64,000 nucleotides of DNA from Haloferax mucosum ATCC BAA-1512. Lineage in GTDB: Archaea > Halobacteriota > Halobacteria > Halobacteriales > Haloferacaceae. The stretch lies in contig NZ_AOLN01000018.1 of NCBI RefSeq assembly GCF_000337815.1, positions 620,001-684,000 of the forward strand, given 5' to 3'. Both the position numbers and the translations under genes were made by a program. The notes under the pieces are model-generated. The model was given only the letters and a program-made list of their open reading frames with translations. It made no database searches and was not told the DNA's origin. Shown piece after piece: positions 23,573 to 28,383 of the stretch (positions are counted from its first letter, which is position 1; every line of letters begins with the position of its first letter).

Positions 23573-23995
23573 TCAGAACTCGACGTTCGACCGCGACGTT
23601 CGGTCCGCGGGGTCGGTCTCGATTGCGCCGGTGCCGACGAACGAGAAGTCGTCGTCCGAGAGGAAGACGTGGTCGCCGTCGATAGTGAGTTCGAGGTCGT
23701 CGAGAACCGCACCCTCGCAGGGACCGTAGTTGCAGTAGCCCGTGTCGGCCTCGAAGTACGCGCCGTGGTTCTGACAGATGACCTCGCCGTTTCGCATCGG
23801 CGCACCCGACCCTTTGTCGAGTTTGATGTGCGTCAGGTGCATGCAGTAGTTCAACCACGCTTGAATGCCGTCGTCGGTGCGGACGAGAATCGCCTCGCGT
23901 TCGTCTTCGTCCTCGTCGGTCTCGCTGACGCGGAATAAGAAGGTCGTGTCGTCGGGGACGTCGCCGACCGAACAGATGCGTTCGAGGTCGCTCAT
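23573..23995 (-). CDS. Rieske [2Fe-2S] ferredoxin-like protein
   Basis: 140-residue soluble single-domain Rieske protein. The cluster ligands are C51 and H53 (CMHLTH) and C74 and H77 (CQNH), with GAYFEADTGYCNYGPCEG supplying the loop and two extra cysteines (C88, C93). An acidic loop (26-33) is a halophilic adaptation. It could be an electron carrier for a dioxygenase, but no oxygenase is adjacent. An AAATTAGC box lies about 30 bases upstream. Convergent with pabC. Confidence 0.87.
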   Translation of the reverse strand: MSDLERICSVGDVPDDTTFLFRVSETDEDEDEREAILVRTDDGIQAWLNYCMHLTHIKLDKGSGAPMRNGEVICQNHGAYFEADTGYCNYGPCEGAVLDDLELTIDGDHVFLSDDDFSFVGTGAIETDPADRTSRSNVEF

Positions 23996-24270: not shown

Positions 24271-24345
24271 TAGCGGGAGGTAGATTTGAACTACCGATCT
24301 CCGGGTTATGAGCCCGGCGGAATCTCCTGGCTATCCCATCCCGCT
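24271..24345 (-). tRNA. Initiator tRNA-Met (CAT)
   Basis: The 75-nt minus-strand sequence folds as a cloverleaf: acceptor AGCGGGA pairs with TCCCGCT, the anticodon loop is CTCATAA (CAT), and the T-arm loop is TTCAAAT. Two features mark it as the initiator: an A1-U72 first pair and three G-C pairs (GGG/CCC) closing the anticodon stem. No intron is seen and CCA is not encoded. It lies downstream of the gtrA-type gene on the same strand. Confidence 0.95.
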
Positions 24346-24405: not shown

Positions 24406-24873
24406 TCACCGTGAGTCACGCTGACTCGAACGGCCCGCGATTCGCCACGTGAACAGGCTCTCTGCGACGTAGTTCAGGAGCATCGACGCGACGATAGCGA
24501 TGGGCAGGGGAATCAGTTTCCAGAGGTCGATACCGGCGACCGGAATCACCAACTGAACCTCGCCGAGCGCGCGGACGACGAGCACTTGCACCGCGAGACC
24601 GCCGCTTCTGACGAGATTCGATTTGACGAAGCGGCGTCCCTTCGCCAGAAGGTGGTCTGCGCCCGCCCCCGCGAAGGTCCACCGGTCGTTGATGAGAAAC
24701 ATCACGACGATGGCGAGTTCCGCACCGGCGAGTTTCGAAATCTCACCGGCGACACCGAAAAAGACGATGAGAAGGCTACTCAGCGACAGGTCGAACACCG
24801 CTCCGACCGCGCCGACGGACGCGAACTTCCCGAATCGCGTACCTGATGCGAGCGCGGAGAGTCGGTCAGTCAT
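24406..24873 (-). CDS. GtrA-family membrane protein
   Basis: 155-residue four-helix membrane protein of the GtrA/DPMS type, proposed to flip polyprenyl-phosphate-linked sugars. It starts MTDRLSALASG, with FGKFASVGAVGAVFDLSLSSLL as the first helix, LINDRWTF after the second, and a Leu/Val-rich C-terminal pair. The start at 24873 overlaps the glycosyltransferase stop by 8 bases, so they are translationally coupled. The partner gene gives the best clue to its role. Ends 60 bases before the initiator tRNA. Confidence 0.85.
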   Translation of the reverse strand: MTDRLSALASGTRFGKFASVGAVGAVFDLSLSSLLIVFFGVAGEISKLAGAELAIVVMFLINDRWTFAGAGADHLLAKGRRFVKSNLVRSGGLAVQVLVVRALGEVQLVIPVAGIDLWKLIPLPIAIVASMLLNYVAESLFTWRIAGRSSQRDSR

Positions 24874-25651
24874 CCGTGACCTCCACCGAAAACTGTTCGA
24901 CGAGCGCCCGTTCGTCGTTTCGAGCGTCGATGAGTTCGTGAAGGCGGTCCTCCCGAATCGTCCGGGCGCGGTGGCGAGACCGGAGCAGTCCGCGAGCCAT
25001 CTTGAGTGTCGTATCGACCGGCGAAACCGTCGAATTCGGTTGGTCTTCCCAAACGACCGGCACTTCGGCGACGCGGTGACCGAACGCACCCGAGACGGCG
25101 ACGAGTTCGATGTCCCACGCGAACCCGGGTTCGTAGAGGTGCGTTCGAACGTCGGCCCACGCGTCGGCGGTCATGGCTTTCGCGCCGCACTGGTAGTCGT
25201 AGAGGGGAACGTCGGTGAGGTGGCGGGCCAACCACGCAAAGCCGTCGCCGAGGTAGCGTCTGGCAATCGTCTGATGTGAGGCGACGGTGGCGTCGGGATG
25301 GCGGCGCGAGCCAACCGCGAGGTCGGCACCGTCCCGAACGGCGTCGATGACGTTCGCAATCGACGTGGCTGGCGTACTGCCGTCGGCGTCCGCGAACGCG
25401 ACGATATCGGTGTCGAGCGCTTCGAACCCCGCGGTAATGGCGGCACCTTTGCCGCGGCGCGAATCGACCGGGTGTACCTCGGCGATGGCGGGGAGGGAAT
25501 CGAGGGCGTCGAGTATTCCTGTCCGCGGAGCGTCGAGTTCGACCCGGACGACGGCGGGATCGAGTTCCGCGACGAGCGCGTGAACGTAGGGAACCAAACG
25601 GTCGGGGTCAGGCCGGTAAGCAGGCACCACCACCCCGACAGACTGCGACAT
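24866..25651 (-). CDS. Family 2 glycosyltransferase (dolichyl-phosphate sugar synthase type)
   Basis: 261-residue GT-A glycosyltransferase. It has the nucleotide-binding VGVVVPAYR N-terminus, the metal-binding DAD at 88-90 (FADADGSTP), GSRR near 110 and YDYQCGAKAM, a pattern typical of DPM1/Alg5-like synthases that put a sugar on polyprenyl phosphate. No membrane segment is present; membrane attachment probably comes from the GtrA partner it overlaps by 8 bases. The start at 25651 is preferred because the upstream frame lacks family sequence. Sugar unknown. Confidence 0.88.
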   Translation of the reverse strand: MSQSVGVVVPAYRPDPDRLVPYVHALVAELDPAVVRVELDAPRTGILDALDSLPAIAEVHPVDSRRGKGAAITAGFEALDTDIVAFADADGSTPATSIANVIDAVRDGADLAVGSRRHPDATVASHQTIARRYLGDGFAWLARHLTDVPLYDYQCGAKAMTADAWADVRTHLYEPGFAWDIELVAVSGAFGHRVAEVPVVWEDQPNSTVSPVDTTLKMARGLLRSRHRARTIREDRLHELIDARNDERALVEQFSVEVTDD

Positions 25652-25747
25652 GCACGACCATTCATCCAACGAGGTAAAAAGCAAACCGCTCTCGTGCGCA
25701 CCCGCCATCACAAAACGTATTGCATCCGCCGCGCCTTCAACTGACAG

Positions 25748-28123
25748 ATGGAGTACGCCCTCGTGGTCCGTTGGTTGGTGGTGTTTGCGGCCCTCTGGGC
25801 GGTCGGGGTTCCGCTCTCGGCTCGCCTGTTTCGCCGTCTCCCCGGTCGCGGTTCCGGATTCGCCCTCCCCGTATCGCTCGTCGTCTTGACGCTCCCTGTC
25901 TACTACGTCGGCCATATCTCGTTCGGTCCCCCCGCGCTCGCGGTCGGCGTCGGCACTCTTCTGTTACTCTCGGCGCTGGCTGGTCTCGACGTGGCGGCGC
26001 TCCGCCGCGGCGAGATACGACTCGCCGCCGACCTCGACATCGACAGGCGAGCAATCGCCGAAGCGGGGGCCGTGTTCGTGTTCGCCTTCCTGTTTGCCGT
26101 TGCGCTCCGCGCGCTCGACCCATCGGTCTACGCCAGCGGCGGCGAGAAGTTCCTCGATTTCGGGCTCCTCCAATCGCTCTCCCGCGCGTCGGTGTTGCCG
26201 CCAGAAGACATGTGGTTTGCCGGCGAACCGGTCCGGTACTACTACGGCGGTCACCTCGTGTCGATACTCCTCGCGTGGCTCACCGGTACGGAACCGGAGT
26301 TCGCGTACAACCTCGCGCTCGCCGGATTCTTCGGCTTCCTCGTCACCGCGGCGTTCGAACTCGGCCGTAGCCTGTCGATAGTTTCGGGGGCGAACAGTCG
26401 TCTCGGCGGTCTCCTCGCGGCGTTTTTCGTCGGCTTCGCAAGCAACCTCGTCACGGCGGGGCGACTCGCGTTGCTCGCACTGCCCGAGGGGATACAGCGC
26501 CCGGTCGCACAGGCAATCGCCGAGCGCTCTCGCTACAGCGTCTCACAGGTTCTCGCCACCGTCTCGGAGTTCTCCTACTGGGACGCGAGTCGCGTCATCC
26601 CCGGAACGATAAACGAGTTCCCGCTGTTTTCGTGGCTCAACGGCGACCTGCACGCGCACATGATGGGAACGCCGTTTTTACTCCTCGCCGCCGGGCTGGC
26701 GTTCGCGTACTTCCGGACGCCTGAGGAGGCAGTCAGCGAGCGTCGGGGTCTCGTCGGCGTCACGGCCCTCGTCGGCGCGCTCCAGGTCGTCGTCGATACG
26801 TGGAGTTTCCCGTCGGTGTTCGGCGTCCTCTTTCTTGGTCTCGTCTTTGCGCCCGCGCGCCCGTCAACCATATTTATCAGCCGTGACCGACTGGACCGCT
26901 TCGTCGGCGACGACCCAGTCGCAGGCGAAACGGCTCGCGTCCTCGGAACCACTCTCGCGGTCGGTCTCGCCGGGGGTGTCGCCGTCGCCCTCGCAAGCCC
27001 GTTCCTGCTCGGAAGCGTTACTGGCGGCGGAAGTACCAGAACAATCGAGATTCTGGCACCCGAAAATCGCAGTGGCTTCGGAGCGCTCCTACTCGTCCAC
27101 GGCGCGTTCATCGGGGCGTTCGCACTTCACTACGCAGGACAACTGCGCTCGGGACAGGGGTCTGCTCACGGTCTCGACGGACGACAGACGCTCGGGCTTC
27201 TCGGCGGTCTCGCGGTGTTGTCGGTCGTCGCCGCAGTCCACTCGTTCGCCGCGCTCGTGCTCGTCGTTCCGTTCGTGGCCGTCGGGTGGATTCTACTCAG
27301 GTCTACCGACGACCCGCGGTTCGAGACGGTTCTCGTCGTCGCGGGGGCGGGTCTCGTGACACTCGTCGAACTCGTCTTCGTGAACGAACAGGCCGGTCCC
27401 GGTCGGATGAACACGGTGTTCAAGACGTACATGCAGGTGTGGGTGCTCTGGGGAAGCGCCGCGGGAGCCGTCCTTGCGAGCGTCGTCCGCGACGCCGCGA
27501 CGACCGGCGACGTGTCGCTACCGAAAGTCGGGTTCAGTGTCCGCGCCGGCGCGGTCCGGGTCGTCGGTGTCGCAGTCGTCGTCTTGCTCGTCGCGTCCAC
27601 GTCGGCCTACGCCGGCCTCGCCGTCTCGGAACACACAAACACCCCGCGACAGGAGACGACGCTCGATGCGACGGCGTTCGCGGAGTGGTGGCATCCGAAC
27701 GAGTCAACGGCGATTACGTGGCTCGACCGGAACGTCGAAGGAACCCCGACGATGCTCTCGGCACCGGGAACGACGTGGTCGGAAACAGTAGCCGACAAGC
27801 GAAACGGGGTCATGTATAGCTGGCGCGGGAACCCCGAATCGAGTCTCACCGGCGTCCCGACCGTCGCCGGCTGGGCGCACGAAGTCGGCTACCGCGGTCC
27901 CGAAGCGTACTACGACCGCGTGCGCGACGTGGACGCGATGTACGTCGGGAACGAATCGACGCGAATGGAACTCATCGACGAGTACGACGTGGCGTACGTC
28001 TGGGTCGGGCCGGGCGAGCGCGCCCGCTACGGAGACATCGAAACGGACGTCCCGTGGCTGACGCCCGTCCACCGGTCAGGGTCGGTCGTGGTCTACGAAG
28101 TAGAAGAAGCGATGCTTCGTTAG
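25748..28123 (+). CDS. DUF2298 (YYY) multi-pass membrane protein
   Basis: 791-residue integral membrane protein with 12 or more hydrophobic helices, related to the DUF2298 archaeal/Chloroflexi family named after its Tyr-rich motif. The motif VRYYYGGHL lies near 160, with KFLDFGLLQ before it and NGDLHAHMM near 297 on an outward-facing loop, where an acidic residue follows the first helix as in GT-C glycosyltransferases. The C-terminal roughly 160 residues are a soluble domain (WAHEVGYRG...). It is divergent from the GT2/GtrA pair 97 bases away. A transferase role is inference. Confidence 0.85.
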   Translation: MEYALVVRWLVVFAALWAVGVPLSARLFRRLPGRGSGFALPVSLVVLTLPVYYVGHISFGPPALAVGVGTLLLLSALAGLDVAALRRGEIRLAADLDIDRRAIAEAGAVFVFAFLFAVALRALDPSVYASGGEKFLDFGLLQSLSRASVLPPEDMWFAGEPVRYYYGGHLVSILLAWLTGTEPEFAYNLALAGFFGFLVTAAFELGRSLSIVSGANSRLGGLLAAFFVGFASNLVTAGRLALLALPEGIQRPVAQAIAERSRYSVSQVLATVSEFSYWDASRVIPGTINEFPLFSWLNGDLHAHMMGTPFLLLAAGLAFAYFRTPEEAVSERRGLVGVTALVGALQVVVDTWSFPSVFGVLFLGLVFAPARPSTIFISRDRLDRFVGDDPVAGETARVLGTTLAVGLAGGVAVALASPFLLGSVTGGGSTRTIEILAPENRSGFGALLLVHGAFIGAFALHYAGQLRSGQGSAHGLDGRQTLGLLGGLAVLSVVAAVHSFAALVLVVPFVAVGWILLRSTDDPRFETVLVVAGAGLVTLVELVFVNEQAGPGRMNTVFKTYMQVWVLWGSAAGAVLASVVRDAATTGDVSLPKVGFSVRAGAVRVVGVAVVVLLVASTSAYAGLAVSEHTNTPRQETTLDATAFAEWWHPNESTAITWLDRNVEGTPTMLSAPGTTWSETVADKRNGVMYSWRGNPESSLTGVPTVAGWAHEVGYRGPEAYYDRVRDVDAMYVGNESTRMELIDEYDVAYVWVGPGERARYGDIETDVPWLTPVHRSGSVVVYEVEEAMLR

Positions 28124-28383
28124 GCTACTGCGCCGCTCTCCCGAATGACCTCGATGGCTTCGGCATCGACGCCCTCGGTTTCGAGCCAGTGCGGGACGAA
28201 TTCTCGCTTTTCGAACGCCTCGCGCTCGTCTTCGCTGCCGACGGTACACCACATCTGGACGCGGTCCGGGCCGTGCCAGTCGCCCTGCCGGTCGATGGAG
28301 AAGCAGATGTACTCCTCGCCGTCGTACTCGATGACGGCGTCGCGCCGAATACCGGGGTCGCCGTGGATGATGAGCTTCTTCAT
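28120..28383 (-). CDS. HAH_0734-family small protein
   Basis: 87-residue conserved haloarchaeal protein of unknown function. It begins MKKLIIHGDPGIRRDAVIEYDGEE-like beta-rich sequence, contains C27 and C46 and ends IRESGAVA. It overlaps the DUF2298 stop by 4 bases, tail to tail. I recognise the family only by its appearance in halophile annotations; no enzyme motif is evident. Confidence 0.75.
   Translation of the reverse strand: MKKLIIHGDPGIRRDAVIEYDGEEYICFSIDRQGDWHGPDRVQMWCTVGSEDEREAFEKREFVPHWLETEGVDAEAIEVIRESGAVA

Follow-up and report, generated by a model that had tools for sequence, protein, structure and literature searches.

Several described systems resemble the locus analyzed here. 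In the bacterial three-component glycosylation systems GtrB/GtrA/Gtr and GtlA/GtcA/GtlB (PMC8035078, PMC11127046), a polyprenyl-phosphate sugar synthase of the GT-A fold acts with a GtrA-type protein and a linked polytopic protein of the GT-C fold; GtrA proteins have been proposed as the flippases in such systems (PMC8035078). The AglD-AglR-AglS system of Haloferax volcanii, which adds the terminal mannose of the S-layer N-glycan, comprises a lipid-linked monosaccharide made by a glycosyltransferase of family 2 (GT2), its outward movement and a GT-C transfer by AglS, a dolichyl phosphate (DolP)-mannose mannosyltransferase (PMC3871713). In the dolichyl-phosphate mannose (DPM) synthase of Pyrococcus furiosus (DPMS, structure 5mlz), a catalytic and a transmembrane (TM) half are joined in one polypeptide (PMC5526996). 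Here we describe a cluster in the genome of Haloferax mucosum ATCC BAA-1512 (contig NZ_AOLN01000018.1, positions 620,001 to 684,000; this whole stretch of 64,000 nucleotides is referred to as the window) that encodes a DPM1-like GT2, a GtrA-family protein and a DUF2298 membrane protein. It is probably an archaeal multi-component transmembrane glycosylation system, with a protein of the TIGR03663 family and a flavin adenine dinucleotide (FAD) oxidoreductase in the same pathway.

Like the bacterial systems, the cluster combines a GT-A-fold synthase, a small GtrA-type membrane protein and a linked polytopic GT-C-fold protein. Unlike them, it is archaeal, has DUF2298 as the GT-C component and a GT2 without a TM segment of its own, and is co-inherited with a second GT-C protein (TIGR03663) and the FAD oxidoreductase. 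With AglD-AglR-AglS it shares AglS homologues that adjoin relatives of the GT2-GtrA pair, whereas the third protein in the window is DUF2298, GtrA stands in place of AglR, and a search of the window's genome found no member of the AglS family (PF15971). The parts and the logic of multi-component systems are known; the assignment of DUF2298 as an archaeal GT-C component and the co-inherited set are new.

Fold, conserved loop and third-gene position of DUF2298

An earlier note on this stretch, made from the sequence alone, described the DUF2298 protein as GT-C-like and its family as one with no proven function, and both statements hold. Searched with Foldseek, an AlphaFold2 model based on 51 haloarchaeal and methanogen relatives (mean pLDDT 92.8, pTM 0.94) has 17 PDB matches at E<1e-3, and all 17 are GT-C glycosyltransferases, namely oligosaccharyltransferases (STT3, AglB) and the arabinosyltransferase AftA. 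The highest TM-score among these significant matches is that of AftA (0.45 by query, 0.57 by target), and PglB and Pmt1-Pmt2 are the next plausible matches below this group. At the sequence level, no relative of known structure was found for DUF2298; PF10060 is the sole Pfam match, with no match to the STT3 profile PF02516 at E<=0.1; and no paper on function was found in the literature searched for TIGR03662, PF10060 and the name YYY. A viral origin of the protein was rejected, since viral proteins gave no significant match to its fold.

The STT3 and AglB matches at the top of the fold search raise the possibility that DUF2298 is oligosaccharyltransferase-like and transfers a glycan assembled beforehand instead of one sugar. 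This appears improbable considering the lack of an STT3 Pfam match and the presence of the AglB family in 142 of the 145 haloarchaeal genomes compared (a set not chosen by score), with or without DUF2298; the window's genome, too, has a separate AglB. Furthermore, the GT2 partner is a monosaccharide-lipid synthase, and AftA, the protein with the highest TM-score, is a user of lipid-phosphate monosaccharide.

Within the 51 relatives, E133, D154 and Y165 of DUF2298 are invariant, and K134, D137, Y164 and Y166 are each conserved in at least 47 (D137 in 48); residues 164-166 constitute the YYY motif. These residues fall in the loop that follows the helix 100-123 and that, by the model and the positive-inside reading, is located outside. 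The first extracytoplasmic loop is the usual site of the catalytic acid in GT-C enzymes. The conserved acids of the DUF2298 model occupy this position, so that a catalytic role can reasonably be inferred for them. The best reading is that DUF2298 represents a new GT-C family belonging to a lipid-phosphate-sugar glycosylation system, the use of such a donor being suggested by the GT2 partner.

The strongest functional argument for DUF2298 as a transferase comes from paralogous GT2-GtrA cassettes, about 50% identical, in which the third gene is a different one. The place of DUF2298 is taken by an AglS-family protein in four of these loci (L039, L044, L060, L071) and by a PMT_2 protein in three (L057, L058, L059); within the haloarchaeal GT2s, the seven paired with AglS or PMT_2 form a single clade (support 100/99). 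Because these proteins sit there, the DUF2298 slot is, in other loci, that of a known user of DolP-sugar or of its GT-C relatives. Transfer of the sugar on the outside, the third step proposed in the earlier note, is thus supported both by the fold and by this replacement, whereas the S-layer or pilin glycan named there as the acceptor is a guess. One haloarchaeal GT2-GtrA-PMT_2 cassette (L058:3569-6966) lies beside transposase-like open reading frames and looks as if it were mobile.

The GT2-GtrA pair as a candidate split synthase

The family profile of the GT2 matches residues 22-246 of P. furiosus DPMS, its best solved relative (E 7e-24), and that of GtrA matches the TM half of the same 5mlz chain (residues 254-373, E 1e-12), which is its sole match of solved structure. 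Because a single DPMS chain thus accounts for both profiles, one half each, the pair can be considered a split DPM synthase in which the order of the halves is preserved, with two genes in place of one polypeptide. The metal residues D89 and D91 of the DXD motif and the acceptor-phosphate residues R117 and R131 of DPMS (PMC5526996) correspond to D88, D90, R116 and R131 of the GT2, all of which are invariant in 25 relatives. With a DPMS catalytic domain and these residues conserved, the loading of a sugar onto polyprenyl phosphate, the first step proposed in the earlier note, is well supported. Assignment of the GT2 to AglJ, AglG or the haloarchaeal DolP-hexose transferase family was rejected, the scores being far under the cut-offs. 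AepG (HAH_1206), considered as a possible orthologue, is encoded together with aglB in another cluster and carries two TM segments at its C terminus. A second, weaker match of the GT2 (32%) in the same genome (G000:C18:552538-553035, given as genome:contig:positions) lies in a 662-residue frame that is present in most haloarchaea and is possibly AglD-like.

The second of the proposed steps, flipping by GtrA, did not hold as a definite assignment: GtrA may flip the lipid-linked sugar or may serve solely as the synthase's membrane half, and the evidence fits both equally. A plain two-gene DPM synthase, in which GtrA anchors or positions the catalytic subunit, another protein flips the product and DUF2298 is still the transferase, is a serious possibility that falls somewhat short of an even chance. 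The match to the DPMS TM domain is consistent with this possibility, as are the activity of DPMS without that domain, the function of which is apart from catalysis (PMC5526996), and the want of direct evidence of flipping for the transporters of such systems (PMC11127046). A transport role, in contrast, is in line with the part proposed for the bacterial GtrA proteins (PMC8035078) and with the methanogen loci, where the same slot is filled by a flippase-like protein of PF03706/TIGR00374.

The arrangement of the genes (Table 1) is as previously described, with an overlap of 8 bases between the GtrA start (ATG) and the GT2 stop and with the DUF2298 gene on the opposite strand, except that the divergent start codons of GT2 and DUF2298 are 96 and not 97 bases apart. 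This spacer is likely a shared promoter region; the sigma-70 scan that was run covers no archaeal promoters. DUF2298 and GtrA are each represented by a single gene in the whole genome. On the far side of GtrA, the tRNA gene separates it from a Rieske-domain gene (23573-23995). The HAH_0734/DUF7098 gene at the other end of the cluster adjoins L44e and is kept in many relatives.

Table 1. Features of the cluster and its boundaries, in window coordinates
Feature	Coordinates	Strand	Basis
GT2, DPM1-like dolichyl-phosphate sugar synthase catalytic subunit, 261 aa	24866-25651	-	ATG at 25651; PF00535 E 3e-9
GtrA/DPMS transmembrane-domain protein, 155 aa; candidate synthase membrane subunit and/or flippase	24406-24873	-	PF04138 E 2.4e-18
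DUF2298/TIGR03662 membrane protein, 791 aa, predicted GT-C transferase	25748-28123	+	PF10060 E 6e-142; TIGR03662 E 7e-174
Predicted first extracytoplasmic loop of DUF2298, residues 124-166, candidate catalytic site	26117-26245	+	conservation, model, positive-inside reading
Divergent intergenic region between GT2 and DUF2298, 96 bases	25652-25747		gene coordinates
tRNA-Met, bounding the cluster downstream of GtrA	24271-24345	-	ARAGORN
HAH_0734/DUF7098 family gene	28120-28383	-	convergent with DUF2298, 4-base overlap at the DUF2298 stop

Conservation and the larger co-inherited set

Among the 145 haloarchaeal genomes, DUF2298 and an orthologous GT2 are both present in 75 and both missing in 54, with 8 genomes that have DUF2298 only and 8 that have the GT2 only; in 60 of the 75 genomes with both, the two genes lie within 4.5 kb. 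The same divergent arrangement recurs across Halobacteria. When haloarchaeal DUF2298 loci are selected by score, which biases the sample, the top 30 all have the GT2 alongside, and 29 have GtrA. In 11 compared neighbourhoods, the three cluster genes are the only ones that are always kept whereas the flanks change, the L44e/HAH_0734 surroundings being common to 6 at most; in one of the 11 (L176), the GT2-GtrA pair was not called by the gene finder and is found by tblastn in the matching locus L017. Conservation and co-occurrence rule out chance adjacency. A plasmid-borne module was rejected as well, with weak matches at most among 72,556 plasmids. In another locus (L006 of genome G014), tblastn shows the GT2 beside DUF2298 in two pieces, and no GtrA was detected there; this is a possible decaying copy.

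The cluster is often found at the conserved L44e/HAH_0734 locus, and part of the adjacency could come from inherited gene order. If most of it did, GT2-GtrA might mainly feed TIGR03663, AglS and PMT_2 proteins, with DUF2298 using some other donor. Such an explanation could account for relatives in which the L44e locus holds GT2-GtrA but no DUF2298 (L040-L042) or DUF2298 but no GT2 (L032-L034, L036), for Halobacterium, where the pair is near TIGR03663 rather than DUF2298, and for bacteria, where DUF2298 is seldom near a GT2. It is nevertheless unlikely given that the trio is intact in five neighbourhoods without HAH_0734/L44e (L173-L175, L177, L179), that co-occurrence holds even where the genes lie apart, and that methanogens have a GT2-flippase-DUF2298 order which is independent of the haloarchaeal one.

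In the latter group, 20 methanogen-type loci from many families were compared, and the GT2 is near DUF2298 in 15 of them, 14 of which also carry the PF03706/TIGR00374 protein, not GtrA, either separate from or fused to the GT2. The order FAD oxidoreductase-GT2-PF03706-DUF2298 is seen in approximately 10 of these loci, with closely spaced or overlapping genes. The FAD gene, which is amine-oxidase-like (NF005560/PRK07233), precedes the GT2 in the methanogen operons L074, L075, L077-L081, L083, L087, L089 and L091. DUF2298 is also present in Chloroflexota and in a few other bacterial metagenome-assembled genomes. All five families are encoded in one run in a methanogen-type locus (L083, 2709-12346; TIGR03663, FAD oxidoreductase, GT2, two copies of DUF2298, PF03706 and GT2), and TIGR03663, the FAD oxidoreductase, GT2, PF03706 and DUF2298 are likewise together in a Dehalococcoidia locus (L109, 200-10334), which suggests a single multi-gene pathway. 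Frames of about 1500 residues with about 20-27 hydrophobic segments often span DUF2298 in Chloroflexota (L115-L172, e.g., L124, L132 and L161), where tandem copies of DUF2298 are also common.

Co-inheritance extends beyond the cluster. Among the haloarchaeal genomes, TIGR03663 and DUF2298 have an identical distribution (TIGR03663 in 83 of the 83 with DUF2298 and in 0 of the other 62), and the FAD oxidoreductase NF005560 is found in 80 of these 83 and in 3 of the 62. The absences are concordant, for example, in Halorubrum, in genus g51 of family f3, in genus g31 of family f7 and throughout family f4; this spread over several families requires more than one joint loss or gain. The co-occurrence of TIGR03662 and TIGR03663 is reportedly mentioned in the TIGRFAM descriptions. 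The three-gene module of the earlier note is thus sound as a grouping and too small as a unit. In the window's genome, the additional members are encoded away from the cluster: two copies of TIGR03663 (G000:C18:386233-387720, L208, and G000:C1:270911-272338, L209) and the FAD oxidoreductase (G000:C6:152822-154129).

TIGR03663 bears the name 'Agl23', and its NCBI namesake is a Haloarcula hispanica protein from the family that is found in exactly the DUF2298-bearing haloarchaea. A paper that cites Lu et al. 2020 on this protein (PMC11182771) calls it a putative DolP-Glc/Gal flippase, reports flipping of lipid-linked oligosaccharide in liposomes and links DolP-glucose/galactose to N- and O-glycans. 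Agl23 is a different family and gene from DUF2298, and its flippase label is not easily squared with the PMT_2 domain, the conserved pair D42-E43 and the GT-C fold of TIGR03663; the model of one copy (AlphaFold2, pLDDT 85) matches GT-C proteins first, with ArnT at the top. The liposome result could be extended to DUF2298, which would then mainly translocate lipid-linked sugars. This is highly improbable considering that the GT-C folds of both families match transferases, that the conserved acids are in the expected loop and that the cluster already has a dedicated flippase-like protein.

Several observations weigh against the interpretation of the cluster as a glycosylation system built around DUF2298. 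The Foldseek TM-scores of DUF2298 are moderate, 0.31-0.45 by query length. The occurrence counts are raw and ignore kinship among the genomes, and they include the 8 genomes with DUF2298 but no orthologous GT2 and the 8 with the reverse. A GT2 is beside DUF2298 in just 5 of 70 Chloroflexota loci, a figure that may be too low since bacterial GT2s were detected with archaeal profiles; TIGR03663 is a neighbour in 34 of the 70. Finally, in an alignment mapped by hand, the acceptor-phosphate residue S135 and the mannose contacts H94 and K178 of DPMS are not conserved in the GT2, which has G135 in place of S135; because of these differences, the donor and the sugar may not be those of DPMS.

Predicted pathway and a candidate role in O-glycosylation

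The families, folds, conserved residues, linkage and co-inheritance described above were computed, and the order of reactions, their orientation and the catalytic roles given below are those that we infer. GT2, together with GtrA as a separate transmembrane half, would charge dolichyl phosphate with one sugar, likely glucose/galactose or mannose, on the cytoplasmic side of the membrane. The lipid-linked sugar would then reach the outer leaflet, possibly flipped by GtrA, and DUF2298 would transfer the sugar to an extracytoplasmic acceptor by means of the first-loop acids E133, D137 and D154; the C-terminal soluble domain of DUF2298 possibly binds the acceptor. TIGR03663 and the FAD oxidoreductase are predicted to act in the same pathway.

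O-glycosylation is one process to which this pathway might contribute. An O-linked dihexose has been found on the S-layer protein of Halobacterium salinarum, Haloferax volcanii and Haloarcula hispanica (PMC8241124, PMC9943897), and the archaeal O-glycosylation pathway has been termed elusive (PMC8241124) and enigmatic (PMC8305020). DUF2298 is present in genomes assigned to Halobacterium and Haloarcula and in the H. volcanii control, whose genome also has GtrA, TIGR03663 and the FAD family. In Halorubrum sp. PV6 (G013), DUF2298, TIGR03663 and the FAD oxidoreductase gene are all absent, although a Thr-rich stretch is present in the S-layer protein of this strain (PMC6137143). Agreement across three genera is weak support for the link. 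The full proposal, that DUF2298, TIGR03663, the FAD oxidoreductase and GT2-GtrA or GT2-PF03706 form one pathway of archaea and Chloroflexota which in haloarchaea performs the dihexose O-glycosylation of S-layer threonines, with the two GT-C proteins adding successive sugars, is a tentative conjecture and considerably more apt to be wrong than right.

No function has been assigned to the large DUF2298 family, and its placement in the GT-C superfamily, with a defined partner that makes the donor, makes it an enzyme open to testing. A gene list for a glycosylation pathway apart from the near-universal AglB route follows from its exact co-inheritance with TIGR03663, and the flippase label of Agl23 is called into question. 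The gene set is a concrete, testable candidate for the haloarchaeal O-glycosylation pathway.

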